A stretch of DNA of 64,000 bases, taken from NCBI GenBank assembly GCA_009841075.1, contig VXMP01000068.1:1-64000 (forward strand), given 5' to 3'. The DNA comes from Acidimicrobiia bacterium. GTDB taxonomy: Bacteria; Actinomycetota; Acidimicrobiia; Spongiisociales; Spongiisociaceae. Every line of letters begins with the position of its first letter. The stretch's first letter is position 1. The position numbers and the translations under genes were made by a program. Below are positions 5,734 through 61,698 of this stretch, piece by piece. Under the pieces are notes generated by a model that did not search any database, was not told the DNA's origin, and saw only the letters and a program-made list of their open reading frames with translations.

Positions 5734-6042
5734 ATGCCGTCTATCAGAGAAGGTGATCGGGTCATGGTGATCTCCGGTAAGGACCTGGGCCGAGAGTCGC
5801 GGGTGGCGAGGGTGCTACCCCGCCAGGGCAAGGTGATAGTCGAAGGTATCAACACCGCCAAACGCCATCAAAAGGCGCGTGGTCGGGAGCTGCAGGCCGG
5901 AATCGTGGACAAGGACATGCCGATCGACCTTTCCAATGTGATGCTGATCTGCGAAGACTGTGGACCGATCCGTACCGGAACCGGCCTGAGCGAGACCGGC
6001 CGAAAGTTCCGCCGGTGCACCAAATGTCACGGAGAGGTGTAG
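5734..6042 (+). CDS. rplX: 50S ribosomal protein L24
   Basis: KOW motif [27 protein letters not shown]. Confidence 0.96.
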
Positions 6043-6046
6043 TCCG

Positions 6047-6640
6047 ATGACCGCCGATAAGACCTCCTCCGCCACGGGTTACGTCCCCCGTTTGAAGTTG
6101 CAGTATCAGGACGGCGTTCGATCCCGACTTCTCGAGGAGCTGGGGTTGGGCAACCCGATGTTGATCCCGAACCTGGAAAAAATCGTGGTGAACATGGGGG
6201 TAGGCGAATCGGTGGGTGATCGCAAACAGGTGGGGTCGGCCATGGAGGATCTGTCCACCATTACCGGCCAGAAACCCCGTCTCAATCGGGCCCGCCGGTC
6301 TATTGCCGGTTTCAAGTTACGTACCGGGATGCCGGTAGGCTGTTCGGTGACCATTCGGGGAGATCGGGCCTGGGAGTTCCTGGACCGCCTGATTACGGTC
6401 GCCATCCCTCGTATACGGGATTTCCGAGGCCTCAAACCCTCCTCTTTCGACGGGCGAGGCAACTACAGCTTCGGGGTGAGCGAACAGCTCATCTTCCCCG
6501 AGATCGATTACGACAAGGTAACGGCCGTTCGTGGCATGGACATAACCATCTGCACCACCTCCAAGGACGACCGAGGGGCGCAGGCGTTATTAGAAGCATT
6601 CGGTTTCCCCTTCCGGCGACAGAATGTCGGTGCGGGATAA
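6047..6640 (+). CDS. rplE: 50S ribosomal protein L5
   Basis: [49 protein letters not shown]. Confidence 0.98.
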
Positions 6641-6659
6641 ATAGGCAAAGAGGTACGAA

Positions 6660-55868: not shown

Positions 55869-57998
55869 CTACCCGTTGCCGTTCGATTCCGGATCATCAA
55901 CTCCGGCGGAAGTCGTCGACACCGGGGCTTGGCCCAACACCACCAGAACTGTATCGCCCCGCATGGCTTCCTCTCCGGGACCGGGGGCTTGGCGGACAAT
56001 CCGACCCACCAGATCGGGCGAGCCGACCGTAACCCGAGAAATACCTACCTCCATTTGGAACCCGGACTCGGCCAGCAGCAGATCGGCGTTTGCCGGGGTA
56101 AAGCCGGTTAGGTCGGGAACGCTTACCACATCCGGGCCGATTGATTCGAAAAGGGTCACCGAGTTCCCTCGGTCGGTAGTGGTACCGGCGGCCGGCTCGG
56201 TTGAGATAACCAGCCCGATCTCGAAATCGAAGCTGTTTAGCCGGATCACCTGAACCTGCATTCCGGCCTGCTCCAACGCGTCAATGGCTTCGGCTATCGG
56301 CCTGCCGGACAGATCTTCGACGGTGTAGGTGGCACTGCCTTGGGATATCACCAACAGAACATCCCGTCCCGGATTGATATCCGAACCGGCAGGAGGCACT
56401 TGACTGACCACGAAACCCACTTCTACCAGGTCGTCAAAATCCTGGGTGGAGGAAACCTCCAATCCCAGACCTTCGAGAATGCCCTCCGCTCGATCACGGC
56501 TTAGCCCGATCACCTCGGGCATCTCGATAGGCTCCGGGCCGGCCGAAATCACCAATTCGATCGCCGAGCCGGACGAGGCCTGGGTTTCCCCCGAAGGGCT
56601 CTGGCTGATCACCAGGCCTACCCCGACCGTATCGTGGCGGGCGGTGTTGATGGTTACCGAGAATCCTTGCCCTTCTAGTTGGCTGATAGCCCGCTCCTCG
56701 GTAGAGCCAACCACATTAGGAACCTGGATTTGGGCCGGTCCGCTGGAGATAACCATCGTTATAAAGGCGTCCTCCGTGACTGTTCCCACACCCGGTTCCG
56801 TCCTTAAGACCAGCCCTACCGGCGAATCGCTCGCTTCCCGACTCAACCTGACCCGGAAACCTTCCTCCTGCAATACCAGCAGCGCACCTTCCTCGGATAG
56901 ACCATTGACGTCCGGAACCTCCAAGACGACATTCGGCACGGTGGTGGAGGGCGTGGGGTCGTTGGACAAGCTGTTAAGCAGCAGGTAAGCCCCATAGACC
57001 ACTCCGGCGGCCAGGATCAGTGCGGTTAGGACGAACGGCAGTTGGGAAGGTGGTCGGCGGGAGGGTGCCTTGGTCGGGGTAGCCCCCTCCCTGGCACCGG
57101 CCGGTCGGGAGGAGCCGGTCTGAGCCGGGATGGTGCGGGTTGGTGGGCCGGTGGTGGAAAGAGATTGGTGGGAGGGCTTTCCATGCAGAACTACCACCAT
57201 GTCGTGGTGCATATCAGCGGCGTTCTTGTAGCGCTTCTGCGGGTCCTTTTCGAGGGCTTTCATAACGATGTCCTCAAGCTCCAAGGGCACATCCGTGTTA
57301 ATCCGGCTGGGCGGAACCACTTCGGCGGTTACGTGTTGGTAGGCCACCGATACGGCGCTTTCTCCACGAAATGGCGGACGGCCTACCAGCATCTCGTACA
57401 ACACCACCCCCAGGCTGTATACATCAGACCGTTCGTCGGCGGGATCGCCGCTGGCCTGTTCCGGACTGAAATAGGTGGCGGTGCCGATAACCGAACCCGC
57501 CTTGGTGAGACCCTGCGTTGAGCTGCGGGCCCGGGCCACCCCGAAGTCGGTGACCTTGACCGAGCCGTACGTGGTCAGGAGAACGTTGCCGGGCTTGATG
57601 TCGCGGTGGATGACATCGTTGTGATGGGCGGCATCCAAGGCTTTGGCGATCTCGATGGCTATCTCGGTGGCCCGTCGGGGTTGGAGCCGGCCTTCAGAAT
57701 CAAGGATGTCCCGCAGGGATCGGCCTCTTATCAATTCCATGACCATGTAGTAGGTGGAATCTTCTTCACCCCAGTCGTAAACCGAAACGATGTTGGGATG
57801 ACTCAGGTTGGCTACGGCCCGGGCCTCCTTACGGAACCGAGCCACGAAGGTGCCCGCCTCGGCATAACGTTCGTGCAGTATCTTGACGGCCACCTGCCGA
57901 TCAAGCAGACGATCACGGGCCTCGAACACGTCGGACATACCGCCCCTGGCGATCTGGGCGGTCAGCTCGTAACGTCCCAGCGAATTTCGAGATTCCAT
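55869..57998 (-). CDS. pknB: Serine/threonine protein kinase PknB with five PASTA domains
   Basis: GRYELTAQIARGGMSDVFEARDRLLDRQVAVKIL, HRDIKPGNVLL, TM, five PASTA repeats; likely ATG 57998. Confidence 0.95.
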   Translation of the reverse strand: MESRNSLGRYELTAQIARGGMSDVFEARDRLLDRQVAVKILHERYAEAGTFVARFRKEARAVANLSHPNIVSVYDWGEEDSTYYMVMELIRGRSLRDILDSEGRLQPRRATEIAIEIAKALDAAHHNDVIHRDIKPGNVLLTTYGSVKVTDFGVARARSSTQGLTKAGSVIGTATYFSPEQASGDPADERSDVYSLGVVLYEMLVGRPPFRGESAVSVAYQHVTAEVVPPSRINTDVPLELEDIVMKALEKDPQKRYKNAADMHHDMVVVLHGKPSHQSLSTTGPPTRTIPAQTGSSRPAGAREGATPTKAPSRRPPSQLPFVLTALILAAGVVYGAYLLLNSLSNDPTPSTTVPNVVLEVPDVNGLSEEGALLVLQEEGFRVRLSREASDSPVGLVLRTEPGVGTVTEDAFITMVISSGPAQIQVPNVVGSTEERAISQLEGQGFSVTINTARHDTVGVGLVISQSPSGETQASSGSAIELVISAGPEPIEMPEVIGLSRDRAEGILEGLGLEVSSTQDFDDLVEVGFVVSQVPPAGSDINPGRDVLLVISQGSATYTVEDLSGRPIAEAIDALEQAGMQVQVIRLNSFDFEIGLVISTEPAAGTTTDRGNSVTLFESIGPDVVSVPDLTGFTPANADLLLAESGFQMEVGISRVTVGSPDLVGRIVRQAPGPGEEAMRGDTVLVVLGQAPVSTTSAGVDDPESNGNG

Positions 57999-58184
57999 AA
58001 TCTTTAGCCTAAATGCACCGAGGGCGGTTAGAGGGTTGGGGCGGACTTCAGGCCTAAAATCTAGTAGGGAAAAGGAAGTATTGGGTGGAGGTTTATTGGT
58101 GGGAGGCCGGGTGTTATTCGACTCCACGGTGTCTTCTGCCCCCTGTCTCTACCCATAGCCTGGATCCGCCTACGGGAGGGGGGT

Positions 58185-58497
58185 TCAAGGCGCTTCGGGA
58201 ACGTTTTTTTGCGTTCTCGAAATTAGGGGTTGAAAATGTCCCGGACTCATGATACGTAGGGGGTTGCCAAGCACCGAAGGCCGGGTAAAGAGGTAGGTAT
58301 CCCGATCGGATCCCCGGCCCCAAGGGAACATAAACGTATGGAGCGAACAGCCGAACCGCAGTCTCCCGGCTTCAGTCCGGGCATGGTTGACCACGCTCCA
58401 AATCAGGTGGTGTGCGGCGGGGGTGGGGACCCGGCGTAGCCGGGTGAGGTGGGCGGATTTTGCGATTTCTGTGAGTATTTCCCCAGTTTATAGGCGG
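58185..58497 (-). repeat. Dispersed structured intergenic element, copy D
   Basis: Nearly identical to copy A; even the chance ORF MVNHARTEAGRLRFGCSLHTFMF.. is identical in both. Confidence 0.85.
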
Positions 58498-58568
58498 TAT
58501 TATGAGCTTTCTGGTCAGGGTCTTTATCGGTGACGCTGTGAACCTTAGGTTCGGGGAGGCTAACGGGT

Positions 58569-59669
58569 TTAGGCTTCGGCTTCTAGCACACTCACCCAGG
58601 CCCGGAGGACTCTCCGGCCGATTCGGTTCGCCTGGTTTTCGTTTGTGTCTTCGATTACCACCGCCACGATAATGGCCGGATCGGTGGCGGGCATCGACCC
58701 GAAAAACCAGGCCGTGGCCTCCCCGCTTTCGCTCTGGTGCCTCCCCATGCCGCCTTGGCCTTCGAGGGTACCGTGTCCAGAACTTTGGATGGTAAAAGGG
58801 CGGAGGTTCGGGCCGATTTCAAATGTCCCCTCGCTCAGGCTATCTGCTTCGTCAAAAGGTTGGGGTTCGGCAGAGAAGACCTGGTTGGAGTCGGCATCGA
58901 ATATTCTCGCCACCACATAGGGGCGCATTCGAAAGTCGTCGCGGGTAACGGCCGCCACCTTTATGGCGAGGCCGAGAGGCGATGCACGATCAAAGGAATC
59001 GGACGAAACCGTCTCCTCAAGGGTCAGAAAATCCAGGGAAGAAGCCCCGATCGCCCGGTTATAAAGAGGGCGATCCGGATGATCCACCAGCTCGTCCCGG
59101 TATGCTGCCGCTTCGCTTTCCAATAAGGCGTTGGGATTGAAGGACGGCGAACCGGCCATAACCAACACCTGACCGGAGGAAGGCTCCATAGCTACAACCC
59201 CTCCCTTGTGGTCGCCCAATGCCCTTACGGCAGCCGTTTGGATCTCATGGTTTAGGGTCAGCTGAATGGAATAAGGGCGCAGGTCTTCGCCTATTAGGGC
59301 ATCGAAGATTCTTCCCGGGGTCAGGCCGGCGCGGGATCGAAGGGTATCGTCCAAAGCCGCTTCCAGTCCTTGATCTCCGAACCGGCGCGAGGAAAATCCG
59401 ATCAGGTGGGCGTATTCGGTTCCATACAGATACTCGCGCCGGTAGGAATACGAATCAGGTTCCACAGGAACTGATCGGGCCAGCACCGCTGTGTCGGCCG
59501 AAATTATCGTTCCCCTCTCCTGACCGGACTCTTCCCTGGATCGACGGGGGTTTTGATCGTGATCCTGAAGTTGGTCGGCGGCTATGGCCTGCCAGTAGGT
59601 GAGTCCTACCACCAAGGCCAGCACGGCCACCCCGAATACCAGGACGGCCAGTCGGATCGGGCGGTTCAT
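58569..59669 (-). CDS. pbpA: PbpA/FtsI-family penicillin-binding protein homolog, apparently catalytically degenerate
   Basis: TYWQAIAADQLQDHDQNPR, GTIISADTAVLARS, YGTEYAHLIGFSSRRFGDQGLE, GGVVAMEPSSGQVLVMAGSPSFNPN; SxxK, SxN and KTG not found. Confidence 0.88.
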   Translation of the reverse strand: MNRPIRLAVLVFGVAVLALVVGLTYWQAIAADQLQDHDQNPRRSREESGQERGTIISADTAVLARSVPVEPDSYSYRREYLYGTEYAHLIGFSSRRFGDQGLEAALDDTLRSRAGLTPGRIFDALIGEDLRPYSIQLTLNHEIQTAAVRALGDHKGGVVAMEPSSGQVLVMAGSPSFNPNALLESEAAAYRDELVDHPDRPLYNRAIGASSLDFLTLEETVSSDSFDRASPLGLAIKVAAVTRDDFRMRPYVVARIFDADSNQVFSAEPQPFDEADSLSEGTFEIGPNLRPFTIQSSGHGTLEGQGGMGRHQSESGEATAWFFGSMPATDPAIIVAVVIEDTNENQANRIGRRVLRAWVSVLEAEA

Positions 59670-60979
59670 AGGTGTTCCAGGTGGCTGATCCGAGCCAGGA
59701 TCGCCAGTACCATGAAGCCGGCCATATTCAGGGAAAGCCCGTAGGACAAAAAGGGAATAGGTATCGCCGTGGGGGCAAGCCCGATAGCCGCCGCCGCCGA
59801 TAGCGCCAACTGGGACCCCATCAGCAGGGATAAGCCGGCAGCTACCAGCTTATGGAAGATGCCTCGGGCGCGTAAGGCCAGACCGAAACCGGTCAAAACC
59901 ACCAGGGAGTAGGCAACGATCGTCAAGACGGAACCGACCAACCCTAGTTCCTCGCCGATAACCGCAATAACCAGGCTGGTGGTCGCCTCCGGGATCAGAT
60001 GGGGACTACCTTGGCCGAGACCTACACCGAAGATTTCGCCGGAACCGAGGGCGAATAAACCGGGGGCGGAGGAGAAAACCGCATTATCCGGCTGCGACAG
60101 GGGATCGGTCCAGATCAACGAATAACCGTCTGCACCCGCCGACAGAACGATCAACACGACCAGACCGGCCAGGCCCAGTAATCCGCCGATCAGAAAAACC
60201 GGCCGATTCGATGCCAGGTAGGCCATAACCAGGAAAAGCCCCAACAGCAATAGGGCCGTACCAGGATCTCGTAGGGCGGTGCCGACCAGGATAAGCAGCA
60301 GCCCGATGGTCGTGGCAAGGAAGGATCGGCGGGATGGAAAAAACACCGAACTCCACCGAAGCTCGATCAAGGCATCCTGCTGATTGGCTAGAAAGGAGGC
60401 AAACAAAAACACCGCCACCAGCAAGACGATGGGGCCGGGATGAAAAAAGACCGAAGGGTCGGTGCTCCAGGCCACCAGGGTCAGATCGGCATCTACTTCC
60501 AGAACGGGAAGGGCTATTAAACCGAGGGCCAGGAACAAAAGGCCCATGGACAACCGGTGTTGGTTCTCCAGGAACCCGTGCTTGACCTCGACAATCCACA
60601 GCCAGGCCAGGCCGGCGCTTAGCAGCAACCACCAAACCTGACGCCCGGCCTGGTCCTGATCCAGGCGATATATGGTCACAAATCCCAAAGCGGTCAGTAC
60701 CGAAGAGGTGGCAAGTAACAGTGGGGTGGCGGTTGGTGCCCCAACCCAGATTCCGGCCAGCATCAGCCCGAAGGTAATGGCCAAGACCAAAAAGGTGGTT
60801 AAAGCCGGAAGAACCCAACTTTCCTGTTGGGCCAGGTTGACCAGCAGGACACCGAAACCGGCCAGGGCGGCGGCGCTAAGCACATAAAAGGGTTCGAAGG
60901 TCCGGCCTGCTGATCGGCGATAAGGCCACTTCCCCCCTATTGGTTTCAGCCCGGTTCTAAACCGAGAAAGGATAATCAA
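59666..60979 (-). CDS. rodA: SEDS family protein (RodA/FtsW)
   Basis: Multi-TM; DPGTALLLLGLFLVMAY, LFALGSGEIFGVGLGQGSPHLIPEATTSLVIAVIGEELGLVG. Confidence 0.92.
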   Translation of the reverse strand: MIILSRFRTGLKPIGGKWPYRRSAGRTFEPFYVLSAAALAGFGVLLVNLAQQESWVLPALTTFLVLAITFGLMLAGIWVGAPTATPLLLATSSVLTALGFVTIYRLDQDQAGRQVWWLLLSAGLAWLWIVEVKHGFLENQHRLSMGLLFLALGLIALPVLEVDADLTLVAWSTDPSVFFHPGPIVLLVAVFLFASFLANQQDALIELRWSSVFFPSRRSFLATTIGLLLILVGTALRDPGTALLLLGLFLVMAYLASNRPVFLIGGLLGLAGLVVLIVLSAGADGYSLIWTDPLSQPDNAVFSSAPGLFALGSGEIFGVGLGQGSPHLIPEATTSLVIAVIGEELGLVGSVLTIVAYSLVVLTGFGLALRARGIFHKLVAAGLSLLMGSQLALSAAAAIGLAPTAIPIPFLSYGLSLNMAGFMVLAILARISHLEHL

Positions 60980-61698
60980 TCGTCACTTTCGTCAGGCACC
61001 GCCTCCACCAGGACCACCGATATGTTGTCGAGCCCCCCCGCTTCGTTAGCCGCCTCGATCAGTCCCCAGACCGCGTCGGAGAGAACCTCCGACCCGAGTA
61101 TTTCGGCTATATGCTCATCGGTGATCATAGAAGTCAAACCATCCGAGCACAGCAGCAGACGATCCCCTTCCTCCACCTTCCTTTGCAACACGTCAACCTC
61201 TACCGAATCTTCAAGCCCTACGGCCCTGGTGATAATGGCCGACGCCGGATGGATTCGGGCCTGCTCGGGCGTGAGCAGACCGGCCTCAACCTGTTCCTGA
61301 ACCCAGGTGTGATCACGGGTCAGCTGGCGGAACCGGCCCAAATGGAGCCGGTAGGCCCGACTGTCACTGACATGGCCGATGTTGACCGTACCGTCAGACA
61401 ACAGCTCGGCAATCGTAAGGGTGGTACCCATTCCGGCTTTTTCCGGGTCTCTCTCACTCTCTTCCCAGACGGCCTGGTTGGCCGCTTTAATCCGATTTTT
61501 TACGGTTCCTTCGGTAGCGACCGCGGTTTCTATGGCTAAACGGCTGGCTACATCTCCACAAGCGTGCCCCCCTAATCCGTCTGCCACCGCCACCAGAAGC
61601 GGACCATCTTCTCGCCCGTCATGCTCCGGGTAGATCGAGTCCTCGTTATAAGGGCGAACCATTCCTTTATGGGTACCGGATGACCAGACGAACCTCAT
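60976..61698 (-). CDS. pstP: PP2C-family Ser/Thr phosphatase
   Basis: VRPYNEDSIY, LVAVADGLGGHACGDVAS, SDSRAYRL, LLCSDGLTSMI, GLDNISVVLV. Confidence 0.95.
   Translation of the reverse strand: MRFVWSSGTHKGMVRPYNEDSIYPEHDGREDGPLLVAVADGLGGHACGDVASRLAIETAVATEGTVKNRIKAANQAVWEESERDPEKAGMGTTLTIAELLSDGTVNIGHVSDSRAYRLHLGRFRQLTRDHTWVQEQVEAGLLTPEQARIHPASAIITRAVGLEDSVEVDVLQRKVEEGDRLLLCSDGLTSMITDEHIAEILGSEVLSDAVWGLIEAANEAGGLDNISVVLVEAVPDESDD

Follow-up and report, generated by a model that had tools for sequence, protein, structure and literature searches.

The pstP-pknB locus is conserved in Actinobacteria (PMC6554272). The versions from M. tuberculosis and M. smegmatis, described in the same work, share with the locus analyzed here the order pstP-rodA-pbpA-PASTA kinase and a PbpA with a transmembrane (TM) helix and a pedestal. 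On the SEDS side of such pairs, D297 is the putative catalytic residue of E. coli FtsW, the D297A form being presumed completely inactive (PMC8765783), and the D262A substitution abolishes the polymerase activity of RodA (PMC6207328). On the side of the class B penicillin-binding proteins (bPBPs), catalytically inactive members can keep essential roles if the SEDS protein is active (PMC12713402). Noncatalytic roles of SEDS-bPBP pairs have so far been studied with engineered dead mutants. Judging from the residues retained and lost across related genomes, we think it likely that the SEDS-bPBP pair described below is a natural pseudo-synthase that gave up both activities on the branch to three genera of one Acidimicrobiia family (g1 to g3), or shortly after it, and was kept for a noncatalytic job.

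The window, i.e., the whole stretch of DNA that was analyzed, is 64,000 nucleotides long (contig VXMP01000068.1) and comes from an Acidimicrobiia bacterium of genus g1. The genes of the locus are as follows.

60976 to 61698, minus strand: PP2C-type phosphatase (PstP/Stp-like) of the same gene cluster
59666 to 60979, minus strand: pseudo-RodA, a SEDS partner without the catalytic Asp, 437 aa from the listed TTG (true start uncertain)
58569 to 59669, minus strand: pseudo-PbpA, a class B PBP homolog without SxxK, SxN, and KTG, 366 aa
55869 to 58127, minus strand: PknB-like kinase with five PASTA repeats, listed GTG start at 58127

The pbpA gene thus sits in a pstP-rodA-pbpA-pknB locus, as fits the PbpA subfamily of class B PBPs. 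The upstream rodA shares 4 nt with it in the window, and in the relatives the two genes either abut or overlap. The true start of PknB is probably the conserved ATG at 57998 (codon 44), which would make the listed start 43 codons too long. Measured from that position (57998-58568 in the window; loci L007-L018 and L066-L075), the gap between pbpA and pknB is 88 to 609 nt in the genomes with the dead pair, against 18 nt in the sister genus g4 and 18 to 90 nt in most Acidimicrobiia relatives, with one of 204; no tRNA or Rfam match was found in it. The locus suggests a link of the pair to PknB and PstP, but the wider gap weakens a direct tie to PknB, which may be expressed separately, possibly from its own promoter. 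As a separate observation, the genome of g3 (G011) has two tandem PP2C matches upstream of rodA (L075:5222-5917 and 5965-6651), and the others have one.

The pbpA open reading frame begins with ATG and is a single unbroken frame of 366 aa with zero frameshifts. Three of its segments need to be told apart.

59280 to 59669, minus strand: membrane helix followed by the PBP_dimer_2 pedestal, residues 1-130, the best-kept part of PbpA
58989 to 59051, minus strand: deletion scar, residues 207-227, comprising the old SxxK site and the edge of the deletion that removed SxN (from alignments)
58743 to 58751, minus strand: former KTG, now GMG, residues 307-309

The product has the N-terminal membrane helix and the pedestal of the PbpA subfamily of class B PBPs (PF21922 and PF00905), the pedestal being matched by PBP_dimer_2 at residues 52-128 (E = 7.5e-14, Pfam search). 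Its Transpeptidase domain is incomplete. The best Pfam piece (residues 227-354) corresponds to positions 160-293 of the 299 in the profile, a profile search of the genome adds an N-terminal piece matching positions 1-35, and about 125 middle positions are left without a match. With the profile matched at both ends only, the middle of the domain is absent from PbpA, and the alignment places there a deletion of about 110 residues that takes out the SxN block. In a 51-sequence alignment, the SxxK region reads YNRAIGASSLDFLTLEE, with L215 (codon 59025-59027) at the position of the catalytic Ser and E218 (codon 59016-59018) at that of the Lys; the segment NRAIGASSLDFLTLEE aligns with SRAISESYAPGSTFKTI of the sister genus g4. 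Farther along, GQGGMGRHQ lies over the AGKTGTAE region of the relatives, so that GMG has replaced KTG. None of the three motifs was found elsewhere within the 366 residues. PbpA is hence a predicted dead transpeptidase, with none of the three motifs left, and both penicillin binding and transpeptidation are predicted to be absent. The preliminary description, made from the letters of the window, had held that SxxK is missing, that the SxN region is largely deleted, and that the KTG region is altered in a short protein lying between rodA and pknB; all three losses are borne out, and the strings it quoted, the length, and the placement are exact. It had named displaced motifs as an objection to its own reading, and this objection fails on the search just given.

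Structure prediction adds little to the sequence comparisons. The AlphaFold model of PbpA is poor (mean pLDDT of 57.7; about 70 to 87 in the C-terminal core; a helix at residues 3-36), and we base no claim on it; that of RodA is unusable (mean pLDDT of 38.6). A fold search with the PbpA model gave its best matches, at low TM-scores, among the class B PBPs of Atopobium and Eggerthella. The solved structures closest by sequence, Atopobium parvulum 4jbf and Eggerthella lenta 4mnr, are also among the top fold matches. They differ from the protein described here in that their transpeptidase domain is full-length and shows KTG when aligned, and several of the Atopobium entries are complexes with beta-lactams.

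A comparison with 99 relatives and the whole family (15 genomes in four genera) recovered the deletion-type PbpA in 13 of the 13 genomes of genera g1 (10/10), g2 (2/2), and g3 (1/1). These proteins are 42 to 52% identical to PbpA of the window, and their genomes keep the same gene order; the named records are metagenome-assembled genomes of uncultivated organisms. Genome G014 of the sister genus g4 encodes a full-length PbpA with GSTFK, SCN, and KTGT, and the second g4 genome, which is 72% complete, gave no match. The motifs are intact in the sister genus and in the other families examined. Outside g1 to g3, no contiguous deletion-type match occurs among the matches listed by screens at the level of the class (395 genomes) and the phylum (296 genomes), a search that an independent loss with different edges would escape. 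A possible second dead group, f3/g36 (L111-L116), was rejected, as its members keep SxxK (PLGSAFK or PVGSVFK), SCN, KTGT, and the SEDS Asp. The PbpA of that group is shorter, at 461 aa, and divergent from about residue 176. In a tree of the PknB kinase, built without rodA and pbpA, g1 to g3 form a group (support 98/96) to which the active g4 is sister (99/97). The simplest history has one pbpA deletion on the g1 to g3 branch, with the SEDS Asp lost on that branch or later; the joint loss of both activities may count as one evolutionary episode. The preliminary description had named conservation of the loss in sister genomes as a check, and the loss is conserved throughout g1 to g3. A frameshift or assembly error, which it had named as the other objection, is ruled out as the cause by the intact frame and by the recurrence of the deletion in 12 other assemblies, and the gene is no recent pseudogene either. 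That account understated the case, because the adjacent RodA also lacks its catalytic Asp.

RodA matches the SEDS family PF01098 above the Pfam cut-off (E = 3.6e-36). The decisive residue was located by alignment to FtsW of E. coli K-12.

59975 to 59977, minus strand: codon AGC for Ser335, which aligns with E. coli FtsW D297

In the operonic RodA proteins, this column holds Ser in every g1 genome aligned, Gly or Ser in g2, and Arg in g3. It is Asp in 30 of the 30 operonic SEDS proteins of the relatives compared, g4 included, and in all FtsW/RodA paralogs from the same family (21/21). Among the genomes compared, loss of the SEDS Asp is thus confined to those with a dead PbpA. The g1 proteins have no conserved acidic residue next to the lost Asp. 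The same column separates two Thermus RodA chains, 6bar with TDF and 6bas with TAF, the latter of which we take to be the engineered inactive D255A form. RodA of the window is also changed at four positions (Q147 to His, R246 to Tyr, G371 to Ala, and G381 to Leu) at which substitutions gave dominant-negative FtsW alleles (PMC8765783). R246, G371, and G381 are also variable among some active relatives, and Q147 or G381 is retained in part of g2 and g3, which leaves the Asp as the clean marker of SEDS loss. RodA is predicted to be catalytically dead, with its lipid II polymerase activity lost. These observations bear on the idea that the dead PbpA allosterically activates its own RodA while another PBP does the cross-linking, an arrangement that has its model in catalytically inactive PBP2b and FtsW of B. 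subtilis. The TM helix and the pedestal, the parts that activate SEDS proteins (PMC6207328), are the best conserved, and inactive bPBPs offer a precedent (cited in PMC12713402). However, such an activator calls for an intact cognate SEDS protein, and wherever PbpA is dead, the operonic RodA is without the catalytic Asp, with no replacement acidic residue conserved nearby in g1. Since the partner is dead by sequence, we regard this arrangement as very improbable.

Both rodA and pbpA are under purifying selection. Within g1, Nei-Gojobori estimates from a few pairs, at synonymous divergences of 0.3 to 0.5, give dN/dS of 0.12 to 0.20 for PbpA and 0.17 to 0.22 for RodA. Along PbpA, the values rise from the TM helix (0.03 to 0.08) through the pedestal (0.07 to 0.16) and the N-terminal part of the transpeptidase remnant (0.13 to 0.20) to its C-terminal part (0.23 to 0.29). 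Positions conserved in active PbpA proteins follow suit, 7 of 8 being retained in the TM segment, 28 of 36 in the pedestal, and 14 of 52 in the C-terminal domain. This is the pattern of constraint expected of a protein that has lost catalysis but still needs its membrane and pedestal parts. Between the genome of the window and G005, identity is 49% for RodA and 51% for PbpA, against 69% for FtsW, 78% for RodA2, and 84% for the PknB kinase; the faster divergence of the two genes than of the active paralogs means that part of the constraint has been relaxed. This divergence, the different substitutions that the genera show in place of the SEDS Asp, and the presence of redundant active pairs would all fit a slow decay, in which the two genes, made redundant by an MreB-linked RodA/PBP2, are pseudogenes in the making that no longer have any function of their own. 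We nevertheless hold such decay to be improbable, since the frames are open in 13 of 13 genomes from three genera, the overlap of rodA and pbpA is maintained, and dN/dS stays at 0.12 to 0.22 for both genes, tightest in the interaction parts. The same open frames and ratios argue against pseudogenes in general. The preliminary suggestion of a dead transpeptidase with a retained noncatalytic role is accordingly the one favored by the absence of the three motifs, the fixation of the loss across three genera, and the purifying selection.

Besides pseudo-PbpA, the genome encodes PBPs in three frames, of 584, 666, and 836 aa. The 666-aa PBP adjoins a second RodA-type SEDS protein and an MreB on contig C7, the 584-aa PBP shares contig C36 with an FtsW-type SEDS protein, and the 836-aa PBP, on C59, is probably of class A, judging by its size. 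A YkuD-type protein is present as well. With other synthase pairs available (FtsW/FtsI and the MreB-linked RodA/PBP2), the catalysis of a third pair is in principle dispensable. In G014, C22:3484-3978 holds a further SEDS match, partial and interrupted by two in-frame TAG codons; it may be a SEDS pseudogene or a contaminant introduced by binning. The genomes with the dead pair have three SEDS proteins and, besides pseudo-PbpA, three PBPs, and together with the retained pedestal and TM helix this could be read as cross-pairing, with pseudo-PbpA or pseudo-RodA serving as an accessory subunit of the active RodA2/PBP2 or FtsW/FtsI. We consider this unlikely, since the dead partners stay together, with their genes overlapping, in all the genomes, a sign that each is the other's partner.

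The pseudo-synthase pair probably works as a noncatalytic regulator or scaffold and not as an enzyme. RodA and PbpA would still form the usual membrane complex, given that the helix and pedestal are best kept and the genes still overlap. Where the wall grows, this complex would serve as a regulator or scaffold. It might, for example, tie up partners or substrate and in this way hold back or position the active synthases, with wall synthesis itself left to FtsW/FtsI and the MreB-linked RodA/PBP2. More tentatively, the whole SEDS-bPBP complex is possibly a nonenzymatic signaling or brake device that competes with the active elongation machinery or joins it, or that detects lipid II or nascent wall, and passes its signal on via PknB and PstP, which the same locus encodes. 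A natural pair that has lost both activities and is still under selection separates structural and regulatory functions from synthesis, and it could be expressed in laboratory strains. More generally, a gene annotated as pbpA or rodA in a pstP-pknB locus need not encode an enzyme or a target of beta-lactams.

No report of a natural double-dead SEDS-bPBP pair was found in the literature searched, with most subscription papers and preprints lying outside it. When the locus is set beside the systems known to us, it departs from the M. tuberculosis and M. smegmatis pair in that its PbpA lacks SxxK, SxN, and KTG and its RodA lacks the catalytic Asp. B. subtilis PBP2b and C. difficile SpoVD S311A are likewise bPBPs that matter without transpeptidation (PMC12713402). 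Those are engineered mutants of active enzymes, each standing beside an active SEDS protein, whereas the present pair lost its transpeptidase by nature and has a SEDS partner that is predicted to be dead too. The engineered FtsW D297A and RodA D262A forms (PMC8765783, PMC6207328) have lost the same Asp position; in the locus described here, that loss is natural, fixed across genera, and coupled to a bPBP that is itself predicted to be dead.
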